A stretch of DNA of 33,894 nt, taken from NCBI GenBank assembly GCA_025463055.1, contig JAOAPV010000029.1:1-33894 (forward strand), given 5' to 3'. The translations under genes and the position numbers were made by a program. Positions within the stretch are counted from its first letter, which is position 1; the number at the start of each line of letters is the position of its first letter. Source of the stretch: Candidatus Acidiferrum typicum. GTDB lineage: Bacteria > Acidobacteriota > Terriglobia > Acidiferrales > UBA7541. The notes beneath the pieces are model-generated. The model made no database searches, was not told the DNA's origin, and was given only the letters and a program-made list of their open reading frames with translations. Below, piece after piece: positions 13,733-24,899 of the stretch.

Positions 13733-14476
13733 ATGACTCCCCCCAAAGTAGTGGTCGTGATTCCGGCACGCTACGGCTCGACCCGGCTGCCCGGGAAGCC
13801 TCTCGTATCGCTCGCCGGGAAGTCCATGATCCAGCGCGTCTACGACCGTGCCAAACTGGCACAGCGGGTGAACCGCGTGATCGTAGCCACCGACGACGAG
13901 CGCATCGTCAAGGCCGTGCAGGAATTCGGCGGCGAAGCTCGCATGACCCGGCACGACCACCGGACCGGAACGGAACGCGTAGCGGAAGTTGCCGCGCATG
14001 AGGCCGGCGACATCTTCGTAAACGTGCAGGGCGACGAGCCGCTCCTCGACCCCGCGGCGGTAGACACGGCGGTGGGAGCTTTGCTCGAGGAGCCGCAGGC
14101 CGCGATTGCCACTGTGGCCACTCCCATCAGGACCCCCGCAGACATCATGGACCCCAACGTCTGTAAGGTGGTCCTGGACTTCGACGAGAACGCGCTCTAC
14201 TTTTCGCGAGCGCCCATTCCCTGGGTGCGGGATACAGGCGGCCACGTCCAGGCCCGCCACCTGAAGCACTTGGGCTTGTACGTGTTTCGCCGCGATGCCC
14301 TGCTCGAGTACCCTACGCTCCCGCAAGGCGAGCTGGAAAGGATCGAGCAGCTGGAACAGCTGCGTTGGCTAGAGAACGGTTGGAAGATCCGCGTAGCCCA
14401 AGTCGAGCACGACGCCATAAGCGTAGACGTGCCCGAAGACATAGCCCGCGTCGAAAAGCTGCTAGCCAGCCAGTAG
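13733..14476 (+). CDS. kdsB: 3-deoxy-manno-octulosonate cytidylyltransferase (CMP-Kdo synthetase)
   Basis: Activates Kdo with CTP to CMP-Kdo, releasing pyrophosphate, for transfer to lipid A in the cytoplasm. The N-terminal nucleotide-binding motif VVIPARYGSTRLPGKPL, the VIVATDDERI strand and FVNVQGDEPLLDP with catalytic-metal acidic residues are all present, as are CKVVLDFDENALYFSRAPIPW and the HLGLYVFRRDALL segment of this family. The length of 247 residues is standard. ATG at 13733 follows AGGAAGG (13720-13726). It is separated from the rest of the Kdo genes by a convergent minus-strand pair. CTP synthase is the next plus-strand gene. Confidence 0.96.
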   Translation: MTPPKVVVVIPARYGSTRLPGKPLVSLAGKSMIQRVYDRAKLAQRVNRVIVATDDERIVKAVQEFGGEARMTRHDHRTGTERVAEVAAHEAGDIFVNVQGDEPLLDPAAVDTAVGALLEEPQAAIATVATPIRTPADIMDPNVCKVVLDFDENALYFSRAPIPWVRDTGGHVQARHLKHLGLYVFRRDALLEYPTLPQGELERIEQLEQLRWLENGWKIRVAQVEHDAISVDVPEDIARVEKLLASQ

Positions 14477-14669
14477 CGTGTTTGTGGACTGCGGCGGTCT
14501 TGTTTATCCTTAGCCTCGAAGCACTCGCCTTTACGGCGTTAGCCACGGGCGCTCTTGACCCAACCCTCGAATCTGTGGCGCAACGCCCTCCAGCGTAGGC
14601 GGAGTCTCCGCACCTCGGCGGCCTTTGAACCGCGTCAACCGCGGCTCAATCGTCTCGCCTAAGGTTGAC

Positions 14670-16256
14670 CTAAGGCTGAAAGGACACGCTACCCGCGATC
14701 GTGTGCGCGTCGTCGGCATCCACTAGCAATATCAGATCCGGGTTGGCGATATACGCCTTGAAATGGTACGTCGTTTGAGGTGAACCACCAGTCGTTACAG
14801 TGTAATCATTGCTGCCCATCCCGTTGCCATTCAGCGTCAATGTGCCCGTAAGCGCCTGATTCAAGAACGCGGGACTGTGCTGGCTAGAGGAGCCTAGTTC
14901 CACAAAATCGATCGTCCCCGCAATCGCACCGGCGCTCGATAATGAGTGCTGACCAACAAAGTCTTCCTCGAACCTGAGATTCGCCGTTGAACCCAGGTTG
15001 ATCCCGCTCCAATTGAAAACGAAGTTCCCTGCCAAGCCAGCGCCTGAAAATGGGCCAGTCTGCGCGAACATCGTGCCATCACCGATGACCCCGTTGCTGG
15101 TGTCCTGGATAAACGCCTGGGTTGGCGAGATGAGATAAAACACGAAGGAAAAGTTCCCCAAATTCGGATTGCTGGACGCGGTGAAGCTCATCATTCCTCG
15201 CCCACTTCCGGCATTTACCGTATCAATGTCATAAATCGCGTTGCTGATGGCAGTCGAGCCAGTGATCGCCCTATGCGTGCCGTCATTATTGTCGTCCAGT
15301 ACGATGGCGCCGAGGTTCCCTCCGCCATCGGCCGTGAACGCAGCCGCCCGAGCGATAGGCCCGGCAGTCCCAAGAACCGATCCCCCTCCGATCAGAAACG
15401 TGAAATCACCCTTAAATGCAGAGTTTTGCAAGGCAACCGTGGCGCTCTGCTGCAGCGCATCGCCGAACGTGGCAAACTGACCGTCATCCTCCATCAACTT
15501 AAAGTGGCTTCCATCCACGATATAGAAAATGAATGAAAGATTCCCAAACCTAATTGTCCCGCGCCCGAAACTGGCGCCGTTCGCCGGATCCATCTGATAA
15601 GTGCCGCCTGCCGGGATTACCTGAGCGCTCAAGAGCTGTCCCGCGTCGTTTGAGTCGAATAACCCACCCTGAATGTTTCCTGCACCATTGGTATTGATCT
15701 GCCCGACAACCGAGGTCGGCCCACCCGCCGCCGTCGTCGTGCCCGTTATGGTGCCCGCTATATCGAAAACATAAGAACCGGCAATGGCCGTTTGCGTGAA
15801 CGCAGCTAGTGTTTGCCGCGTGAACGAGCCGCTCGAGGTGGCGTTAAGGTCCGTTTGGATCATCACGCCGGCATTCGCGGAATTCAGTGCAATGCTCATT
15901 TGCAAGCCGCCCGTCGTGCTGACCAGCGTCAGCGTACCTTTTCCATTCGCTTGAACCGAGTAGGTCCCGCCCGTAAATTGCACCAATTGCGGAAGGCTGC
16001 CGGCGTCCGTGACGTCTTCCAACGCCGTGGTAATATTGCCGTTCCCGTCCGCCGTGAAGCTACCCACGCGAGCAATGAACGCGCCGAAATTTACTCCTCC
16101 GTCCTCACCGCTCATCGAGAAAGCGTACGTTCCCTTCAGGTCCGCGTTGGAAAAACCGCCAGTCACGGGCGGAGGAACGGACGGCGCGTTATTGCTGCTG
16201 CATGCCGCGGCAAATAGGGCCGCGACCGCGGCGAGAACCACCGCTAGCGGCTTCAC
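14670..16256 (-). CDS. Repeat-containing lipoprotein, unknown function
   Basis: A 528-residue predicted lipoprotein. The signal sequence ends in a lipobox LFAAACSS, with Cys19 as the acylation site. The rest consists of about four degenerate repeats of ~120 residues (roughly 40-150, 158-275, 281-400, 407-528). Each begins with an (L/F/I)xG(T/S/D/N)(Y/F)xF strand, carries a Gly/Asn/Asp turn such as FTADGNGN or FTADGGGN, and ends with a strand like FIFYIVD or FVFYLIS followed by a Gly/Asp loop. The composition is Gly/Ala/Thr/Asn-rich with almost no charged clusters, typical of secreted beta proteins. It starts with GTG and overlaps the upstream gene by 4 nt (GTGA). No enzyme motif was recognised. 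Confidence 0.82.
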   Translation of the reverse strand: MKPLAVVLAAVAALFAAACSSNNAPSVPPPVTGGFSNADLKGTYAFSMSGEDGGVNFGAFIARVGSFTADGNGNITTALEDVTDAGSLPQLVQFTGGTYSVQANGKGTLTLVSTTGGLQMSIALNSANAGVMIQTDLNATSSGSFTRQTLAAFTQTAIAGSYVFDIAGTITGTTTAAGGPTSVVGQINTNGAGNIQGGLFDSNDAGQLLSAQVIPAGGTYQMDPANGASFGRGTIRFGNLSFIFYIVDGSHFKLMEDDGQFATFGDALQQSATVALQNSAFKGDFTFLIGGGSVLGTAGPIARAAAFTADGGGNLGAIVLDDNNDGTHRAITGSTAISNAIYDIDTVNAGSGRGMMSFTASSNPNLGNFSFVFYLISPTQAFIQDTSNGVIGDGTMFAQTGPFSGAGLAGNFVFNWSGINLGSTANLRFEEDFVGQHSLSSAGAIAGTIDFVELGSSSQHSPAFLNQALTGTLTLNGNGMGSNDYTVTTGGSPQTTYHFKAYIANPDLILLVDADDAHTIAGSVSFQP

Positions 16257-16708
16257 AGGACACCTGCTTCGGACTTGCCCGCTTTAGTTGTGGGCCGAAG
16301 CGGGAAGCCGCGCGTACTGCGCAGCGCCAAAGTCTGGCTGCCCTTCTGTATAATGCGCGCGAAAAATTGACTCCCCGTGCCGTGTGCAACGTTCTCGCCG
16401 ATCACCCGAACACTGTCGCCCGCGGCAAGCGTGAGGTGATTCGCCTTCAGCAATCTCGCGTCCCCGAGGTGAACGTCAACCGGCCCGGAAGCGGTCTGGA
16501 TTACAACGTGAGGCCCGAGCGGAGCAGTCGCAGAATTCTCCGTGAAACTAACCACCGTGCCCTGCAGAGAAACCTCTCGGCTCACTTCGTAAGCGCGCAT
16601 TTGCTGCGGAGCGCTTTGCGTCTTCTGCTGCGCGGCTGCACTTACGGACAATAAGAGAGCCCCGCAGAGCCAAGCTGAGAAACTGTTCCACCGAATCGGT
16701 CTGTTCAT
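16253..16708 (-). CDS. Small exported OB-fold-like protein
   Basis: A 151-residue secreted protein. The signal peptide FSAWLCGALLLSVSAAAQ is followed by a beta-rich domain (VSLQGTVVSFTENSA, HVVIQTASGPVDVHLGD, GDSVRVIGE, FFARIIQKGSQTLALR). That strand pattern resembles the small OB-fold modules used by periplasmic metal or carbohydrate-binding proteins, but the assignment is only by pattern. ATG at 16708 is preceded by GGAAGG; the longer open frame upstream has no signal peptide at its start. It is translationally coupled to the lipoprotein gene (GTGA overlap), so the two are probably made together in the envelope. Confidence 0.75.
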   Translation of the reverse strand: MNRPIRWNSFSAWLCGALLLSVSAAAQQKTQSAPQQMRAYEVSREVSLQGTVVSFTENSATAPLGPHVVIQTASGPVDVHLGDARLLKANHLTLAAGDSVRVIGENVAHGTGSQFFARIIQKGSQTLALRSTRGFPLRPTTKAGKSEAGVL

Positions 16709-17038
16709 TTGCCTTCCCCGGGAAGAATCGCGAATGCAGCCCTCGAATACACACGTAGGCCGCATTTCGGTACCGCACTCTTTTCTTTGTATTGCTAACT
16801 TGGATGGACGCCACGCCCAAAGCGTTTACGACGGAAGCGCGCGAGCGTTCCTAAGCGTAAACATCTGGGGGCGAAGCGACACCCTCGAAGCACCCGTGCA
16901 TAGGAACACGAGCGCGCAGAAAAGGTTTCTCGTTACCCGCCACTTAGAGTTGCGGAATGTCAAAGGTCCGTTGTGCGAACTAACTAGGCTCGTCCTTTAG
17001 GCCCCGGAAATTTGTTTCGGGGCATTCAGTAATCCGAT

Positions 17039-17067
17039 TTGACAGTTTTCGGCGTTCCGAACATAAT
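17039..17067 (+). promoter_or_regulatory. Near-consensus sigma-70 promoter of pyrG
   Basis: TTGACA at 17039-17044 and CATAAT at 17062-17067 with a 17-nt spacer. Predicted transcription start is near 17074, leaving a ~62-nt leader before the pyrG ATG. Confidence 0.65.
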
Positions 17068-17080
17068 TGATTGTACGTCA

Positions 17081-18806
<1,726 letters not shown>

Positions 18807-18922
18807 TTTCGAGTGCGGCGGACTTGCCGGCGCCTTTCCGCTGTAAGCCCAACGGCGCCCGCAGCCCGTAAAGGTCGTGCAATCCGCACGCCCAGAATCA
18901 TTGTCTCGCTTGAACCTCTGGC

Positions 18923-18952
18923 TTTGCCACCATCGTAAAAAAAAGCTAGTAT
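18923..18952 (+). promoter_or_regulatory. Candidate promoter for the DUF433/DUF5615 pair
   Basis: TTTGCC at 18923-18928, an 18-nt spacer rich in A, and TAGTAT at 18947-18952. Transcription would begin within a base or so of the ATG at 18959, which has no Shine-Dalgarno site, so the mRNA may be leaderless. The -35 box is weak. Confidence 0.4.
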
Positions 18953-18958
18953 CACCAC

Positions 18959-19183
18959 ATGCCGGTCGAATGGAAACACCACATCGTGAGCGACCCGGAG
19001 ATTCTCCGCGGCAAGCCGCGCCTTAAGGGAACACGTATTCCCGTCGGCCTCGTGTTGGGGTATTTGGCGGCCGGCAAGACCGCCGACGAAATCGTCGCTG
19101 AGTTCCCCGATCTCACACACGAGCAAATCGCCGCGTGCCTCGACTATGCTCGCGAATTGGCCGAATTTGAGTCCCTCGTCTGA
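18959..19183 (+). CDS. DUF433-family antitoxin-like protein
   Basis: A 74-residue protein of the DUF433 type, small winged/HTH-like DNA-binding proteins that act as antitoxins beside PIN-like partners. The diagnostic start HIVSDPEILRGKPRLKGTRI and the second helix region DEIVAEFPDLTHEQIAACLDYA match the family closely. It precedes the DUF5615 gene with a 1-nt stop/start overlap (TGATG), the usual antitoxin-first order. It probably represses its own operon, judging from family behaviour. Together the two genes form an insertion between pyrG and kdsA. Confidence 0.88.
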   Translation: MPVEWKHHIVSDPEILRGKPRLKGTRIPVGLVLGYLAAGKTADEIVAEFPDLTHEQIAACLDYARELAEFESLV

Positions 19184-19551
19184 TGGCCCTGCGGTTCCTG
19201 GCCGACCACTGCATCTCCAATACCATCGTTCAAACGCTTCGAGAAGCGAATCACGACGTTCTATGCCTTAGGGACGTCTTGCCGGTCGAGTCACCGGATG
19301 CAACTGTAATTGCGAAAGCGCAGGACCTCGATTGCATTCTGGTGTCTCTGAACGGAGACTTCGCCGATATCGTCACCTATCCTCCCTCCAGCTACAAAGG
19401 CATTGTTGCCCTTCAGATGCGCAACCACTCGGAAATCCTTCCTCAGTTGATGGCTAGACTCGTCGGATATCTAAAGCTCCAGCCAGCCATGGAGCATTAC
19501 CGCGGGAAACTATTCGTAGTCGAGGTTAACCGCATCCGCATTCGAGAATAA
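19183..19551 (+). CDS. DUF5615 PIN-like toxin-like protein
   Basis: A 122-residue PIN-like protein, the usual partner of DUF433 antitoxins. The N-terminal strand RFLADHCISNTIVQTLREAN carries the first conserved Asp. LPVESPDATVIAKAQDLDCIL and LVSLNGDFADIVTYPP supply the further acidic residues (the D of the S/TxDxDF-type motif appears here as NGDF). The family is predicted to be ribonucleases related to Mut7-C and VapC, but toxicity is inferred. It overlaps the antitoxin gene by 1 nt. Toxin-antitoxin pairs are often mobile, which would explain its position inside a biosynthetic cluster. Confidence 0.85.
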   Translation: MALRFLADHCISNTIVQTLREANHDVLCLRDVLPVESPDATVIAKAQDLDCILVSLNGDFADIVTYPPSSYKGIVALQMRNHSEILPQLMARLVGYLKLQPAMEHYRGKLFVVEVNRIRIRE

Positions 19552-19939
19552 GCGATCGCAGGCAGCCCCTCCGGCAACGCGCTAGGGGTTGTTGAGGCCG
19601 AACCGGTACGCGCCCAAGCTGAGCATAAGCTGTGTCTCGCCGAACCCTCTTTGTGTCCAAATCCTAAATACTAGTACCCTACTTAAATATTGACAACTTA
19701 GATAACGTGCCGTATCATTGCTCGTGAACTCTCGAAAAGAAGCGCTCGCCTCCGGCAACCACTCTCCCGCTCATTCTTTCTTACTGCTTTCTTCCAGGTA
19801 TCCCATTTACCCTCATACTGTTACGAACTCCTTGTCGTCGCCAAAAAAGTCAACTCTCTTGTTTTCAAGCGATTCCAAACTCTTTTACCTCAAACACCGG
19901 GGGTGGGTATCCCCTGCTCTCCATCCAAAGGACAAAACC
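19552..19939. other. Intergenic region and long leader before the Cys/His gene (388 bp)
   Basis: Contains the promoter at 19690-19718, then a ~215-nt pyrimidine-rich leader. Close to the gene is a G-run/C-run element (GGGGG at 19899-19903, CCCC at 19911-19914) that can form a short hairpin. The coding frame of the downstream gene stays open back to a TTG at 19718, but the composition is leader-like and no protein feature supports translation there. Nothing recognisable was found in 19552-19689. Confidence 0.5.
19690..19718 (+). promoter_or_regulatory. Near-consensus sigma-70 promoter
   Basis: TTGACA (19690-19695), a 17-nt spacer and TATCAT (19713-19718). It is one of the strongest promoter matches in the window and would transcribe the Cys/His-motif gene and probably read into kdsA, which starts about 24 nt after that gene. 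Confidence 0.65.
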
Positions 19940-20392
19940 ATGAAAGCTAAGTCACCCGACTCCATTTTCACTCCAGCGCGCTGCCAACATCGCACCGCCG
20001 CCGGCCGCCAATGTCGCTCCCTCGCCAGCGATCCTTCCTCCGGGTTCTGCCCCCACCACGCTGCCTACCTCGACGATGACCACACCGACTTCTTGGCGGC
20101 CCTGACCCAGAAAGCCTGCCGCTTTCAAAACGCTCAGGGCATCAACCATTCCCTCGGCGCGCTCTATACGCTCGCGGCCCAAGGACGTATCTCGCCTCGC
20201 CGCGCTAGCGTCCTCGCCTACATCAGCAGTTTGCTTCTCCGCTCGCTAACCGCAATCGACAACGATCTTTATCCCAAAGCCGGCCGCCCCGGGTTCAGCC
20301 CCAACGGCGAACCCATCGTGCAAGACGACGTCGACGCTATCGATGATGCAGGTCAAAGCGAGGACCCCGCCAAATCGCAAAAGCCTAACTGA
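19940..20392 (+). CDS. Cys/His-motif protein, unknown function
   Basis: A 150-residue protein with an N-terminal putative zinc-binding motif C-x-H-x8-C-x11-C-x2-H (CQH...GRQC...FCPHH). Similar short CxH...C...CxxH modules occur in many small uncharacterised acidobacterial proteins. That statement is from general recollection and needs a search. The middle is helical (FLAALTQKACRFQNAQGINH, SVLAYISSLLLRSLTAIDND) and the tail is acidic and disordered (DDVDAIDDAGQSEDPAK). No signal peptide. ATG at 19940 follows AAAGGA (19927-19932). The stop lies just before kdsA, so the gene can carry kdsA transcription. DNA or RNA binding is a guess. Confidence 0.7.
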   Translation: MKAKSPDSIFTPARCQHRTAAGRQCRSLASDPSSGFCPHHAAYLDDDHTDFLAALTQKACRFQNAQGINHSLGALYTLAAQGRISPRRASVLAYISSLLLRSLTAIDNDLYPKAGRPGFSPNGEPIVQDDVDAIDDAGQSEDPAKSQKPN

Positions 20393-20415
20393 CCGTGCTA
20401 TCTTCAATGCTCCGC

Positions 20416-21255
20416 ATGGATAGGACACGTGAAATTGCTGTCGGCGCACTACGGCTCGGGGGCGGAAACCCACTATTTCTAATCGCTGGGCCGTGCGTAA
20501 TCGAAAGCGAAGCCCACGCGCGCAAAATGGCCGAGCAAGTCGCGCGCACCGCCGCCGATGCAGGCGTGCCCTATGTCTTCAAGGCGTCCTACGACAAGGC
20601 TAACCGCTCTTCGGCAAAAGGCTTTCGCGGGCCTGGCCTGAAGGAAGGGCTGAGGATTCTGCAGAAGATTAAGGCGGAACTGAAGTTGCCGATTCTTACG
20701 GATATTCATGACGTGTCGCAGGCGGCGGAAGCCGCGCAAGTCTGCGACGTGCTGCAGATTCCAGCCTTCCTTTCGCGGCAAACTGACTTGCTGGTCGCGG
20801 CGGCAAAAACGGGCCGCGTCGTGAACGTAAAGAAGGGCCAGTTTCTGTCGCCCTGGGACATGAGCAACGTGGTGGAGAAAATCGCGAGCGCCGGAAATAC
20901 GAACATTGTCGTTACCGAGCGCGGCGCTTCTTTCGGCTATCAGAATCTGGTCGTGGATGTGCGCTCATTTCCGATTTTGCAGAAACTGGGTTATCCAGTA
21001 GTTTTCGACGTGACGCATTCCGTCCAGCTTCCCGGCGGACAAGGCCATGCCAGCGGCGGTCAGCCGGAATTTATCGAGCCGCTGGCGCGCGCCGCGGTGG
21101 CCGCTGGAGTAGACGGGATTTTTCTGGAGACGCACGACAATCCACCCGCAGCGCTTTCCGATGGAGCGAACGCCTTGCCGCTCCCGCAATTAGCCGGATT
21201 GCTCGCCCGACTCAAGGAATTGTCGACGGTCGTACGGCATTGGGAAAACTCGTGA
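20416..21255 (+). CDS. kdsA: Kdo-8-phosphate synthase
   Basis: Condenses PEP with arabinose-5-phosphate to Kdo-8-phosphate in the cytoplasm. Family segments are intact: FLIAGPCVIESEA, FKASYDKANRSS, GFRGPGL, LPILTDIHD, IPAFLSRQTDLL, VNVKKGQFLSPWDM, DVTHSVQLPGG and FLETHDNP. The Cys in GPCVIES (Cys27), with His201, Glu238 and Asp249, matches the metal ligands of the metal-dependent class seen in Aquifex, rather than the Asn-type metal-independent class of E. coli. ATG at 20416 gives a typical N-terminus (MDRTREIAVG). GTG 20395 and ATG 20407 are alternatives, and no strong ribosome site distinguishes them. Length is 279 residues. Confidence 0.95.
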   Translation: MDRTREIAVGALRLGGGNPLFLIAGPCVIESEAHARKMAEQVARTAADAGVPYVFKASYDKANRSSAKGFRGPGLKEGLRILQKIKAELKLPILTDIHDVSQAAEAAQVCDVLQIPAFLSRQTDLLVAAAKTGRVVNVKKGQFLSPWDMSNVVEKIASAGNTNIVVTERGASFGYQNLVVDVRSFPILQKLGYPVVFDVTHSVQLPGGQGHASGGQPEFIEPLARAAVAAGVDGIFLETHDNPPAALSDGANALPLPQLAGLLARLKELSTVVRHWENS

Positions 21256-21278
21256 ATCGGCGGGCGCAGCAGTTCGTA

Positions 21279-21301
21279 GGGGCGCAGCACTGCTGCGCCC
21301 C
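21279..21301. repeat. Perfect 23-bp palindromic element between kdsA and kdsD
   Basis: GGGGCGCAGCA (21279-21289) is followed by one central base and its exact reverse complement TGCTGCGCCCC (21291-21301). It makes a very stable hairpin with a tiny loop but has no T-run, so it is not a standard terminator. It looks like a REP-type intergenic palindrome, and its copy number elsewhere is unknown. Confidence 0.6.
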
Positions 21302-21336
21302 AGTTGAGAAGGCGTAACCATTATGCGGAGATTGCA

Positions 21337-22296
21337 GTGAGCCTGGAGACTGCGCGCAGAGTGCTAGCGATCGAGGCCCGCGCCATCGAAGAGGTCAAGG
21401 CTCGCCTCGACAGCAGCTTCGCCAAAGCCGTCGACGTGCTTCTTGCCTGCAAGGGGCGCGTAGCCGTCACCGGAATGGGCAAGTCCGGCCTCATCGGGCG
21501 CAAAATTTCGGCCACGTTCTCGAGCACGGGCACACCATCGTTCTTTCTTCATCCAGCCGAGGCCCTGCATGGCGATTTGGGAATGCTGGCGCGCGGCGAT
21601 GCGATGCTCGCGGTGTCCTATGGCGGCGAAACCGAAGAAATCATTCAGCTGCTGGAAGCCCTGAAGCGCCTGCAGATGCCGCTAGTGACGCTGACCGGCA
21701 AAATTGACTCAACGCTGGCCGAAGCGAGTGACGTTACGTTGGACGTAAGTGTCCGCGAAGAGGCCTGCTCCCTCAATTTGGCGCCCACGGCCAGCACAAC
21801 CGTAGCAATGGCGGTAGGCGATGCACTTGCGGTCGCCCTGCTAGAGCGCCGCGGATTTCGCCACGATGATTTTGCAGCGCTGCATCCGGCGGGACGGCTT
21901 GGCAAGAAACTTTTGCGCGTCGAACACTTAATGCACGCAGGGCAAGCCCTGCCACACGTGGCCGAGAGCACCTCCATGCCAGGTACATTTCACGAGATGA
22001 GCAACAAAGGCCTGGGAATGACCACGGTCCTACAAGCCGACGGGCGGCTGGCCGGAATTATCACCGACGGCGATTTGCGGCGCCTGATGGAAAAGCGTGG
22101 CGGTGCTACGCTGGAAATGAACGCAGGGGCGTGCATGACGCGAAACCCACAAACAATCGGCCCGCATGTCCTGGCAAGCGAAGCCCTAAACCTGATGGAG
22201 CGGCGCAAGATTACATCGATCGTCGTCGTGGATGAGGCAGGTGGAGTCCTGGGCGTGGTGCATTTGCACGATTTGTGGGGCCTGGAGCTGATTTAG
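21337..22296 (+). CDS. kdsD: Arabinose-5-phosphate isomerase (KdsD/KpsF family)
   Basis: Converts ribulose-5-phosphate to arabinose-5-phosphate, the first committed Kdo precursor. The N-terminal SIS sugar-isomerase domain (GRVAVTGMGKSGLIGRKISA, FFLHPAEALHGDLGML, LAVSYGGETEEIIQLLE, LNLAPTASTTVAMAVGDALA) is followed by FAALHPAGRLGKKLL and two CBS domains (from about residue 195: MPGTFHEMSNKGLGMTTVLQ, GIITDGDLRRLMEK, MTRNPQTIGPHVLASEALNL). The length is normal. GTG at 21337 is preceded by GGAG (21327-21330), so it is preferred to the TTG at 21304, giving 319 residues. It lies between kdsA and kdsC in pathway context. Confidence 0.95.
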   Translation: MSLETARRVLAIEARAIEEVKARLDSSFAKAVDVLLACKGRVAVTGMGKSGLIGRKISATFSSTGTPSFFLHPAEALHGDLGMLARGDAMLAVSYGGETEEIIQLLEALKRLQMPLVTLTGKIDSTLAEASDVTLDVSVREEACSLNLAPTASTTVAMAVGDALAVALLERRGFRHDDFAALHPAGRLGKKLLRVEHLMHAGQALPHVAESTSMPGTFHEMSNKGLGMTTVLQADGRLAGIITDGDLRRLMEKRGGATLEMNAGACMTRNPQTIGPHVLASEALNLMERRKITSIVVVDEAGGVLGVVHLHDLWGLELI

Positions 22297-22298
22297 TA

Positions 22299-22320
22299 GC
22301 ACAGCCACTCTTGGCTGTGC
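22299..22320. repeat. Hairpin after kdsD
   Basis: GCACAGCC (22299-22306) and GGCTGTGC (22313-22320) form a perfect 8-bp stem with a 6-nt loop, starting 2 nt after the kdsD stop. There is no following T-run. It may act as an mRNA-stabilising or partial termination element, or be a second dispersed palindrome family. Confidence 0.5.
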
Positions 22321-22456
22321 GGGGTTGAAGTTAGCTAAGCGGGCGACATCTAAGAAGCGTGCTCGCTGGACCGACTTCGATCGCCGGCACATGTAGCGGC
22401 CGCGGACCGTCGCCGGCGCCTTCTTATCAAGGGCGCTCGCGCAAAAAGGAGCAAGA

Positions 22457-23017
22457 TTGCTGAAGACCGGAAAGAAGATTTCACCCGCCGTGAAAAGGCG
22501 AGCCAAGCAGATACAGGTTCTTCTGATGGACGTGGACGGAACCATTACGCCAGGCACCGTTGCACTGCTCTCTCAGCCAGACGGAACAGCGTTGGAGATA
22601 AAGATATTTGACGCGCATGATGGCCAGGGAATTTCGCTGGCGCATACCGCTGGCATTCGCACAGGCGTAATCACCGGACGCGAAAGCGCCGCAATGCGCC
22701 GACGCGCGAAAGAGTTAAACATTGAATTCGTATACGAGAAGCAGCCAACAAAAATCGCCGCTTATGAAGAGATATTGCGGAAGACGGGTGCGCCGGAGTC
22801 CGCCGTCGCTTACCTGGGCGACGACCTGCCGGATTTGCCGATTATGCAGCGCGTGGGATTAGCGGTCGCGGTCGGGGACGCCGTACTCGAAGTAAAATTG
22901 GCAGCGCACTTCGTTACGAAAGCAATCGGAGGCAAAGGCGCCGCACGCGAGTTGGTGGAACTCATTTTGAAGAGCAAAGGAATTTGGGAAGAAATGATTG
23001 ATAAGGCGCGCGCTTGA
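22457..23017 (+). CDS. kdsC: Kdo-8-phosphate phosphatase (HAD family)
   Basis: Dephosphorylates Kdo-8-phosphate to Kdo. It is a cap-less C0 HAD phosphatase of 186 residues that usually acts as a tetramer. The nucleophile motif LLMDVDGTITPG (Asp25, Asp27), the KdsC-type segment IKIFDAHDGQGISLAHTAGI, motif II VITGRES, and motif IV LGDDLPDLPIM are clear, as is the KdsC tail region GGKGAARELVELIL. The TTG start at 22457 has AGGAG at 22447-22451. The preceding 160-nt gap (22297-22456) holds only the hairpin. Ppa follows after a 12-nt gap. Confidence 0.94.
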   Translation: MLKTGKKISPAVKRRAKQIQVLLMDVDGTITPGTVALLSQPDGTALEIKIFDAHDGQGISLAHTAGIRTGVITGRESAAMRRRAKELNIEFVYEKQPTKIAAYEEILRKTGAPESAVAYLGDDLPDLPIMQRVGLAVAVGDAVLEVKLAAHFVTKAIGGKGAARELVELILKSKGIWEEMIDKARA

Positions 23018-23029
23018 GAAAGGCTCATT

Positions 23030-23584
23030 GTGGTTAATGCATGGCACGACGTCTCACCCGGCAACGAGTTGCCGCGGGATTTTCAGGCGGTCATCGAAAT
23101 ACCGTTGGGGTCGAACGTAAAGTACGAGCTCGACAAAGCCACCGGCTTGCTGAAGGTGGATCGCATTATCCATTCCGCGGTTTTTTATCCCGCAAATTAT
23201 GGCTTCATTCCGCAGACGTATGCGGAAGACAACGACCCTCTCGACGTCTTGGTCTTGTGCCAGGAACCCGTGCAGCCGCTTGCGCTAATCCAGGCGCGCG
23301 CCATCGGCCTGATGACCATGATCGACTCCGGCGCGAGCGACGACAAAGTGATCGCCGTGGCCACCAACGATCCGGAGTTTAGCGGATACGTGGAGGCGCG
23401 AGATCTGCCGTCACACCGTATGTTAGTGGTGAAGCGCTTTTTCCAGGATTACAAGCAACTCGAGGGCAAGCGCGTCGAAGTCGAGGACATACGGCCAGCG
23501 TACGCCGCGCTCACCGTAATCGAGCGAGCTTTGGCGCGTTATAAGCAAGAACGCGAAAGGCTGCTTTCCAAGGAAAGCGGCTGA
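23030..23584 (+). CDS. ppa: Inorganic pyrophosphatase (family I)
   Basis: Hydrolyses pyrophosphate to two phosphates, pulling biosynthetic reactions such as the KdsB step forward. The family I segments are present: EIPLGSNVKYELDKATG, VDRIIHSAVFYPANYGFIPQ, the metal-binding signature EDNDPLDVLVL and MIDSGASDDKVIAVA, with DYKQLEGKRVEVE near the end. The 184-residue length is typical. GTG at 23030 with GAGAAAGG at 23016-23023 is the preferred start. It is only 12 nt after kdsC, so they are probably cotranscribed. Confidence 0.95.
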   Translation: MVNAWHDVSPGNELPRDFQAVIEIPLGSNVKYELDKATGLLKVDRIIHSAVFYPANYGFIPQTYAEDNDPLDVLVLCQEPVQPLALIQARAIGLMTMIDSGASDDKVIAVATNDPEFSGYVEARDLPSHRMLVVKRFFQDYKQLEGKRVEVEDIRPAYAALTVIERALARYKQERERLLSKESG

Positions 23585-23697: not shown

Positions 23698-24396
23698 ATG
23701 AGCCGTTTCTGGAAATGGACGCTCGGCATCTTTCTGGGCCTAATGCTGATCGCGTTCGCCGGTCTGTCGTTCATGGCCGGCAGTCCTAAAGATGTCTACG
23801 GAATGGTGCGCTACGCCCTTCCCCACATGCACCGCGGCAAGCTGCGCGTCGGTGAAGATGCACCGGACGTGCGTCTGTTGGCCTTGGACGGATCGAACCA
23901 TTTTCATTTGCGCGAACGCACCGGCTCGCGCCCGCTGGTGGTGATCTTCGGCAGCTACACTTGACCGCCGTTCCGGCGCCACGTCGGCGACGTGGTCAAG
24001 ATTTATAACGACTACAAGGACCGCGCGGACTTTCTCACCGTTTACGTCCGCGAAGCGCATCCCACCGACGAGTGGCAGATGAAATCAAACGTGAAAGAAG
24101 ACGTCTGCTACGCGCAGCCGAAAACGTTGGAGCAGCGTGTGGCCATCGCGAACGATTTCGTGCAACGGCAGAAATATCCCCTTCCCTTCGGGATCGACGA
24201 CATGAACAACGCCGCCGACCTTGCATACTCCGCATGGCCGGAGCGGCTTTACGTGATCGACGAGCATGGCCGCATCGCGTTTGCCGGCGGCATGGGGCCC
24301 TTCAAGTATGACCCGGAAGAAGTACGCGCCTGGCTCGTTAAGCGCTTCGGTCCGGTGACACAAACCAGCTCCGCCGCCGCACCACCCAAGCCATGA
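23698..24396 (+). CDS. Iodothyronine-deiodinase-family selenoprotein (in-frame UGA, Sec89)
   Basis: A continuous frame of 233 codons interrupted once by TGA at 23962-23964, read here as selenocysteine. Residues 5-27 form a single membrane anchor (WTLGIFLGLMLIAFAGLSFM). The thioredoxin-like domain follows. Around the TGA it reads VVIFGSYT-U-PPFRRHV, the active-site signature of the deiodinase family, in which bacterial homologues often have Cys. Downstream, FLTVYVREAHPTDEW, DDMNNAADLAYSAWPERLYV and FAGGMGPFKYDPEEVRAWL continue the family pattern. ATG 23698 is preceded by AGGGGAA. Likely a thiol/selenol redox enzyme of the envelope. The substrate is unknown, and thyroid-hormone chemistry is not implied. 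The alternative, a TGC-to-TGA nonsense mutation, is unlikely given the intact downstream part and SECIS-like hairpin. Confidence 0.88.
23960..24000 (+). promoter_or_regulatory. Predicted bacterial SECIS element at the UGA
   Basis: CTTGACC (23960-23966), which contains the TGA, pairs perfectly with GGTCAAG (23994-24000). Inside it, ACGTC (23981-23985) and GACGT (23989-23993) close a GGC loop; without the outer stem this hairpin extends to 7 bp. GCCG/CGGC (23967-23970, 23974-23977) can form a side stem. The apical loop starts 22 nt after the TGA and begins with GG, within the spacing (about 16-37 nt) and loop-G preference described for bacterial SECIS elements that recruit SelB. Confidence 0.75.
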
Positions 24397-24899
24397 TCAT
24401 CGTGGTTATGGGGCCGACCGGCTCCGGGAAAACGACCATCGGTAGCCTCCTCGCGAAGCGGCTCGGCTGGGAATTTGTCGACGCCGACGAATTTCACTCT
24501 CCCGCCAACAAGGCAAAGATGCATCAAGGAATTCCGCTTACCGATGCCGACCGCATCCCCTGGCTCGAGGAAATTCACCGGAATATCCAACAGTGGCTCG
24601 CGGAAAATCGAAACGTTGTGCTGGCATGCTCGGCCTTGAAGGCAAGTTATCGCGAATTGCTCTGGCACAGCGGCGAAGTGAAGCTCGTCTATCTAAAGGG
24701 AACCTACGCCCTGATTTACGACCGGCTGCGTGCGCGGCAAGGCCATTTTACCGGCGAACAAATCCTCGCCTCGCAATTCGCCGCGCTGGAAGAGCCCACC
24801 GACGCCGTTACGGTGGACATTAGCGCTTCGCCCGAACAAATTGTCGATGAAATCTGTCGCCGCCTCGGACTCGACCCTAAACGCACAAACAGTGATTGA
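24393..24899 (+). CDS. gntK: Gluconokinase
   Basis: Phosphorylates gluconate to 6-phosphogluconate with ATP, feeding the pentose phosphate or Entner-Doudoroff route. The 168-residue length and motifs fit GntK: P-loop MGPTGSGKTT (residues 6-15), FVDADEFHSPANKAKMHQGI, PLTDADRIPWL, VVLACSALKASYRELL, and GHFTGEQILASQFAALEEP near the lid. The ATG overlaps the selenoprotein stop by 4 nt (ATGA), and the preceding 20 nt have no Shine-Dalgarno sequence, so initiation probably depends on ribosomes finishing the upstream gene, which requires UGA readthrough. 6-phosphogluconate can become ribulose-5-phosphate, the KdsD substrate, but any link is inference. Confidence 0.93.
   Translation: MIIVVMGPTGSGKTTIGSLLAKRLGWEFVDADEFHSPANKAKMHQGIPLTDADRIPWLEEIHRNIQQWLAENRNVVLACSALKASYRELLWHSGEVKLVYLKGTYALIYDRLRARQGHFTGEQILASQFAALEEPTDAVTVDISASPEQIVDEICRRLGLDPKRTNSD

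Follow-up and report, generated by a model that had tools for sequence, protein, structure and literature searches.

An in-frame UGA in a deiodinase-family gene of Candidatus Acidiferrum typicum is almost certainly decoded as selenocysteine (Sec89), with insertion predicted to proceed through SelB, charged tRNA-Sec and a SECIS hairpin, and the product is likely a membrane-tethered, thioredoxin-fold selenoprotein of the deiodinase family that may act as a thiol-type redox enzyme. Five lines of evidence agree on the selenocysteine reading: the Sec machinery of the genome, the conserved TGA, the SECIS signal, selection on the sequence beyond the UGA, and cysteine counterparts among homologues. 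The gene lies in contig JAOAPV010000029.1, of which 33,894 nucleotides were analysed (hereafter the window, meaning this whole stretch of DNA). The features of the gene and of its immediate neighbours are:

23030..23584, forward strand: inorganic pyrophosphatase, upstream neighbour (PF00719, 187.9 bits)
23698..24396, forward strand: PF00837 deiodinase-family selenoprotein gene, 232 residues with Sec89 (translation with TGA read as U)
23722..23778, forward strand: N-terminal hydrophobic segment, putative membrane anchor (residues 9-27)
23962..23964, forward strand: in-frame UGA, predicted Sec89 in FGSYTUPPFRR (from the translation, the family rows and Cys in homologues)
23978..23996, forward strand: predicted bacterial SECIS hairpin, 8-pair stem with a GGC apical loop at 23986-23988
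24043..24060, forward strand: Tyr116, Glu119 and His121, corresponding to DIO3 Tyr197, Glu200 and His202 (each in 139/139 homologues)
24106..24108, forward strand: Cys137, sole Cys codon of the protein, candidate resolving cysteine
24393..24899, forward strand: P-loop small-molecule kinase, downstream neighbour (best Pfam match SKI)

Reading of the UGA as selenocysteine

The reading frame starts at the ATG at 23698, is read through the TGA at 23962-23964 and ends at a second TGA (24394-24396), yielding a joined product with MSRFWK at its N-terminus, FGSYT-U89-PPFRR midway and PPKP at its C-terminus. A preliminary description of this DNA had proposed that the frame remains coding on both sides of the UGA, with a GSYT-stop-PPFR junction, and that the UGA occupies the Sec position of deiodinases; coordinates and junction were recovered as claimed, and PF00837 matches the joined product with 140.2 bits (cut-off 27; 8.5e-41) over residues 48-216, in an alignment that crosses the UGA. 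The genome contains one match to this family. NCBIfam model NF038285 (deiodinase_rel, deiodinase family protein) aligns with residues 50-211 (5.4e-58) at 197.1 bits, under its 250-bit cut-off, and differs from the protein in being longer (347 positions). Gene callers that stop at each UGA split genes of this kind in two.

Absence of the Sec machinery had been named as grounds for doubting this reading, and the 5.33-Mb genome assembly (98.9% complete) proved to encode all four components sought: selA (560.7 bits, cut-off 268), selB (353.8 bits, cut-off 242), selD (348.9 bits, cut-off 125) and a tRNA-Sec (65.2 bits, gathering threshold 47), the last also found by ARAGORN with anticodon tca. Two PF00384 molybdopterin-oxidoreductase genes of the same genome also carry an in-frame TGA, within NQARV-U-HGPTV and NQARI-U-HSSTV, after QARV or QARI, which we take to be the formate-dehydrogenase Sec position:

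G000:C144:79688-81226 (L204): formate-dehydrogenase-like gene with TGA, predicted selenoprotein
G000:C68:8241-9587 (L205): formate-dehydrogenase-like gene with TGA, predicted selenoprotein

Presence of the gene also tracks that of selA. In the family, selA exceeds its cut-off in 44 of 46 genomes with a deiodinase match and in 33 of the 43 without one (one-sided p = 0.0095); in the phylum sample the corresponding figures are 15 of 16 strong-positive genomes and 235 of the 380 remaining ones (p = 0.006). Both tests ignore relatedness among genomes. The TGA-bearing, deiodinase-positive genomes lacking selA over the cut-off were G044 (59% complete), G067 (55%) and G429 (97%). Weaker TGA rows over the PF00837 cut-off occurred in seven further genomes, six of them with selA; G402 (88% complete), with a weaker TGA row, is absent among the selA matches listed. 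As separate observations on selA, its match falls into two pieces inside one open frame in family genomes G061, G065, G080 and G085, and five of the six genomes of genus g12 (G081-G084 and G086, with G083 and G084 more than 90% complete) have no selA match; deiodinase matches are absent from all genomes of this genus.

To assess conservation of the UGA, we compared PF00837 matches across the family and the phylum. Within the family, matches are spread over 49 rows from 46 of 89 genomes. Exactly one TGA occurs in each of the 46 rows (from 45 genomes) that cover the site, and the other three, without TGA, are C-terminal pieces that begin at profile positions 160, 162 and 210 and fall short of the site. 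The phylum sample yielded matches in 38 of 396 genomes, with one TGA in all 16 rows of at least 91 bits and a mixture of rows with TGA or none below 91 bits; the row of the gene described here is counted both among the 46 family rows and among these 16. In the phylum of G485 (a record titled Planctomycetota), 118 of 392 sampled genomes match, and UGA is present in 55 of the 60 rows of at least 90 bits. The other five have no stop and, together with two weaker rows, read FGNxTCGPF, so that Sec aligns with Cys. The earlier statement that many bacterial homologues have Cys needs correcting for the closest homologues, which are mostly Sec-containing (16/16 and 55/60 rows at the two thresholds); natural Cys forms do exist.

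Comparison of the gene with ten relatives gave dN/dS values of 0.03-0.20 downstream of the UGA (nine computable pairs of ten) and 0.08-0.15 upstream (eight computable pairs), the downstream values being equally low; the ratios are rough because many dS values exceed 1. Judged by these values, the sequence downstream of the UGA is under purifying selection.

In eukaryotic deiodinases the SECIS is a 3' untranslated element, whereas the candidate hairpin of the bacterial gene lies within the coding sequence and follows the UGA at a distance of 21 nt. Folding of 23967-24000 gives this hairpin as the best structure, but in two longer stretches another hairpin that overlaps it has the minimum energy. 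The bacterial SECIS rule, as given in PMC13188914, places a G in the first two loop positions at 16-37 nt from the UGA. At least six of seven pairs form at either of two set positions (+17 or +21) in 61 of 106 non-redundant homologues (taken from 145), whereas 200 synonymous resamplings, in which the protein is unchanged, average 12.55 such homologues and never exceed 21; the two positions were picked from the same data and reach z of 9.4 and 6.9 among 48 stem models. The significance lies across homologues, since the hairpin of this gene alone is equalled by 11% of its own synonymous shuffles; the corresponding share is at most 5% for 68 of the 145 homologues taken one by one, and two of the 145 offer no qualifying hairpin. 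A search with Rfam at a relaxed threshold returned one sub-threshold match, on the other strand.

These results also bear on two readings in which the UGA would not encode selenocysteine, both of which we reject. A changed code with UGA as Trp or Cys would leave the frame open, yet is very improbable: the gene itself ends in TGA (24394-24396), as does its upstream neighbour (23582-23584), a tRNA-Sec with anticodon tca is present, and homologues have Cys at the site. A pseudogene or sequencing error (a true stop or a miscalled Cys codon), in favour of which no evidence emerged, has a negligible chance, given TGA in 46 family and 16 strong phylum rows, selection downstream, the machinery and the SECIS signal.

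Distribution and earlier reports of the family

A scan of genome contigs with an FGSxTUPPF-like DNA pattern, which requires TGA and is therefore blind to Cys forms, returned at least 117 stretches, 97 of which passed a homology filter (at least 55 residues after Sec and an [EAV][AVIE]H[PA] motif). The 20 stretches dropped comprised 12 of an FGCxTUPPF subgroup, seven that were short or arose by chance, and at least one true homologue, L126, lost to the filter with a motif that reads EAHS. The final alignment included 139 UPPF homologues, 91 of them from the pattern scan. These 91 represent at least 11 named phyla, with 24 from Acidobacteriota, 20 from Pseudomonadota, 19 from Planctomycetota, 12 from Chloroflexota, and the rest from seven other phyla and one unlabelled record; a spread over at least 11 phyla appears not to have been described before. 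Some labels are doubtful: the tree places the record named Nevskia soli with the Acidobacteriota. Matches listed from records without a MAG mark include Acidobacteriaceae bacterium KBS 83 and Desulfoluna spongiiphila AA1. The same kind of scan on a virus collection gave four matches, none of which reads as a homologue, and these were taken as chance.

A tree of 90 of the 139 homologues was generated with a quick method that left 42 of 97 inner branches open, and in it DIO2 and DIO3 share a 1.46-long stem that joins an open fork near the clade of the gene described here, so that we make no claim of transfer. Separately, EF-hand domains were observed in frame with deiodinase-family selenoproteins in L116, L117, L105 and L094 (Planctomycetota and Verrucomicrobiota records), the latter two belonging to the separate FGCxTUPPF subgroup; these resemble an EF-hand fusion of a deiodinase-like selenoprotein that is already known, as described in PMC9402790.

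Bacterial Sec-containing members had been called rarely described, a view at odds with the literature, where they have been in print since 2005 and recur in later surveys and reviews. Zhang, Fomenko and Gladyshev (2005; PMC1088965) reported four deiodinase-like selenoproteins from the Sargasso Sea and suggested a redox role; these share with the present gene PF00837, an active-site Sec and a bacterial SECIS, and differ in being a set of four marine sequences from unnamed bacteria. A 2008 ocean survey covers the family, with no motif listed in the part consulted (PMC2398784). In two reviews the tables give UxxC as the motif of the family (PMC9312934, PMC13188914), from which the U-PPF of the present protein differs in having no Cys at +3; the main text of neither review contains the terms Acidobacteri or Planctomycet. 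For Acidobacteria, a 2006 survey lists four selenoproteins from three families, the word deiodinase being absent from the portion consulted (PMC1794560), and a planctomycete genome paper places its selenoproteins in a supplement (PMC4807772). A Sec-containing deiodinase homologue is also reported from Dictyostelium, an organism without known thyroid hormones (PMC2375036). The bacterial deiodinase-like Sec protein is a kind already known, to which this gene adds one, and the literature searched, mostly outside subscription journals, yielded no bacterial member with an assayed function.

Fold, active site and second cysteine

We compared an AlphaFold2 model of the protein, computed with C substituted for U (mean pLDDT 90.4), with known structures. 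Its best matches are mouse DIO2 and DIO3 (PDB 9h48 and 4tr3; Z 23.0 each), followed by SdbA (Z 16.5), ResA (Z 15.7) and TlpA/ResA- and peroxiredoxin-like folds. Foldseek alignments with DIO2 and DIO3 show 35% identity, with the Sec-PPF, the Tyr/Glu/His core and an EAHPxDxW segment in common. Equivalents of DIO3 Thr169, Tyr197, Glu200 and His202 occur in 139/139 aligned UPPF homologues, and the Trp207 position holds Trp in 116/139 (Trp126 in this protein). The protein itself retains every one of the active-site Ser, Thr, Sec, Tyr, Glu, His and Trp residues, in a comparison made with DIO2 and DIO3 only. For several active-site residues of deiodinases mutational data exist (PMC7506546).

The bacterial proteins depart from the animal enzymes at other positions. 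DIO3 Phe258 is replaced by Pro in 136/139 bacterial homologues, with a gap in the other three, a substitution that appears not to have been described before and that presumably falls at the site of the thioredoxin cis-Pro. DIO3 His219 is Pro in 115/139 homologues (Pro141 in this protein), the position of DIO3 Arg275 has no conserved residue (Met199 in this protein), and the DIO3 Cys239 position is without Cys in this protein. Both His219 and Arg/Lys275 have been tied to substrate binding in deiodinases (PMC7506546).

At the N-terminus, residues 9-27 have a mean Kyte-Doolittle hydropathy of 2.29 over 19 residues and overlap a helix spanning residues 4-24 in the AlphaFold2 model; the membrane anchor that had been proposed is plausible. 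This helix probably tethers the protein to the membrane, with the catalytic domain perhaps outside it. A hydrophobic segment is present in 30 of 68 non-fusion homologues tested; an excess of K/R on its N side is seen in only 16 of these 30.

The U89-P-P-F92 motif is neither UxxC nor CxxC, with Phe92 at Sec +3. The alignment was surveyed for a second cysteine, classes being scored with one to two columns of slack. Cys154-type residues occur in 86 homologues, Cys137-type in 37, both in two and neither in 14, such that 125/139 have one type or the other; the Cys137 type is present in 30/30 rows of the gene's own family. In the model, the Cys154-type position sits in helix 144-158 and Cys137 in the loop before that helix. 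Among the 14 homologues without either type, four have a Cys at Sec -2, as in DIO1 and DIO3, five have a Cys six columns ahead of the 154 position, one has it three columns ahead, and four have none of these alternative places. Exactly one Cys besides Sec is found in 64 of 90 non-redundant cores, and an aligned core without any in 2/139. Cys137 alone occurs, among named records, in three homologues, all labelled Acidobacteriota, and on the tree this class forms essentially a single clade, implying one or few independent events for Cys137. The placement of the second cysteine at alternative positions appears not to have been described before. Human DIO1 depends on the Cys two positions ahead of Sec for its re-reduction by glutathione (PMC9141512); in the present protein, its single cysteine would be the residue that resolves oxidised selenium.

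Genomic context and possible function

Of the 139 loci, 16 have a pyrophosphatase homologue upstream in the same orientation, and 15 of these belong to the gene's own family, where the recurring neighbours are household genes (pyrophosphatase, pseudouridine synthase); the start of the downstream kinase overlaps the stop of the selenoprotein gene (ATGA). Further upstream, at 13733-23017, are same-strand genes that resemble those for 3-deoxy-manno-octulosonate (KDO) biosynthesis enzymes and CTP synthase. Beside this gene, no selA-selB, AhpD-like, AhpC-TSA-family, Rieske or TauD/TfdA genes were found.

Across the homologue loci, some of which span only ~3.5 kb so that neighbours are under-seen there, redox and Sec-related genes recur at low raw counts. 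Both selA and selB lie near a homologue in five loci each, from four labelled phyla (a raw count, uncorrected for background); nine of the ten proteins exceed their NCBIfam cut-offs, the tenth being a partial selA. None of these five loci yielded a tRNA-Sec (Rfam on five, ARAGORN on three), and a PF00384 gene with TGA is absent from four of the five genomes. AhpD-like genes lie near a homologue in five loci in total (raw count), of which three carry Sec. In the KBS 83 record (L090:1203-6017), selA, selB and a CPY-U CMD/AhpD-like gene are followed by the homologue 14 nt on; L125 has a CFY-U CMD/AhpD-like gene 25 nt from the homologue, and L193 a CPF-U one 582 nt from a truncated homologue that the filter had dropped. 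The relatives in L085 and L174 have CxxC in place of Sec. An AhpC-TSA-family gene with W-U-AGC lies ~1.2 kb from the L156 homologue, and the same motif occurs in L116. The six-frame list of neighbours with in-frame TGA is mostly noise, and only rows of recognisable families were used. Two additional observations from that list are a GRDB-like gene with V-U-ANCTR (L143:1547-2581) and a UGSC-family gene with N-U-GSCTA (L147:3040-3609), each near a homologue and each likely Sec-containing. Clusters of amino-acid permeases and of short-chain dehydrogenases were found in three loci each across phyla (representatives scanned).

In mycobacteria, AhpD reduces the peroxiredoxin AhpC. This couple, together with the AhpD-like and AhpC-TSA neighbours, is the basis for regarding the protein, which we favour as a membrane-tethered Sec/Cys redox enzyme, as probably peroxidase-like, a tentative assignment to which we give somewhat less than an even chance. 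Under this scheme, SelB, charged tRNA-Sec and the SECIS hairpin would insert Sec89, and the N-terminal hydrophobic helix would anchor the protein in the membrane; the Sec89 selenolate would then attack an electrophile, most likely a peroxide, Cys137 of the same protein would resolve the oxidised selenium into a selenenyl sulfide, and a thioredoxin-like or AhpD-like partner would reduce it. Thyroid hormone is presumably not the natural substrate. A redox role is consistent with the conserved Thr/Tyr/Glu/His, the Pro at the Phe258 position and the second Cys of 125/139 homologues; against it stand the 14/139 that lack the main second-Cys positions and the restriction of AhpD-like neighbours to five loci. 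The AhpC/AhpD system of peroxide reduction has a thioredoxin-like fold akin to that of the protein, and three loci have a CMD-family gene with CxxU near the homologue. Redoxin (PF08534) matches at 30.1 bits, over its cut-off of 26.6, and AhpC-TSA (PF00578) at 24.9 bits, under its cut-off of 26. The peroxiredoxin motif, PxxxTxxC, is absent, the corresponding stretch reading V82-I-F-G-S86-Y-T-U89.

A second group of neighbours points towards other substrates. In 4 of 139 loci (raw count), Rieske ring-hydroxylating genes (PF00848 or PF00355) occur at distances of 121-1208 nt from the homologue:

L066:49-735, Rieske gene near homologue
L149:2346-3599, Rieske gene near homologue
L151:54-773, Rieske gene near homologue
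L168:3-1202, Rieske gene near homologue

A TauD/TfdA-family gene cluster is found near the homologue in three further loci (L154, L158 and L179, of which L179 alone was scanned; raw count). Rieske and TauD/TfdA-family enzymes often act in aromatic breakdown, and such neighbours would suit an aromatic or halogenated substrate. Together with DIO2 and DIO3 as the best matches in both fold and sequence, and with the retained Ser/Thr/Sec/Tyr/Glu/His core and Trp126 (Trp at the Trp207 position in 116/139), they are compatible with a Sec-dependent enzyme that reductively dehalogenates aromatic iodo- or bromo-compounds and so performs, on natural organohalogens, a chemistry resembling that of the animal deiodinases. 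We nevertheless regard this as unlikely, in view of the Pro at His219 in 115/139 homologues, the lack of conservation at Arg275 and the replacement of active-site Phe258 by Pro; the Rieske and TauD/TfdA neighbours, moreover, lie mostly on the opposite strand to the homologue, and none was found beside this gene. The scan of these neighbours slightly raised our estimate for a dehalogenase and slightly lowered those for a peroxidase and a disulfide oxidoreductase. That the protein is a true Sec-dependent iodo- or bromo-aromatic dehalogenase, a living relative of the ancestor of thyroid-hormone deiodination in which the resolving Cys moved between two sites of the fold and Sec stayed fixed, is in our judgement quite unlikely.

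Improbable, too, is a thiol-disulfide or selenenyl-sulfide oxidoreductase of the TlpA/ResA type acting on protein disulfides. Its attraction lies in SdbA (Z 16.5) and ResA (Z 15.7) being the next folds after the deiodinases and in an NCBIfam ResA match at 4.3e-05; that match, however, scores 23.5 bits against a cut-off of 170, and the protein has no CxxC or UxxC, with Phe92 three residues after Sec. As a guide to function, the neighbours give weak and divided hints. The occurrence of selA-selB, Sec-containing AhpD-like genes and ring-hydroxylating dioxygenases near the homologue in a few loci appears to be undescribed.

The KBS 83 homologue, beside selA, selB and a Sec-containing AhpD-like gene, offers a compact system for testing. 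In Ca. Acidiferrum typicum, read-through of a stop signal apparently puts selenium into a bacterial protein that resembles the animal enzymes controlling thyroid hormone. Sec forms of the deiodinase fold are common among bacteria, in which no use of that hormone is expected, and the bacterial reaction, once known, would indicate the starting point of the animal enzyme and the purpose of Sec in these bacteria.
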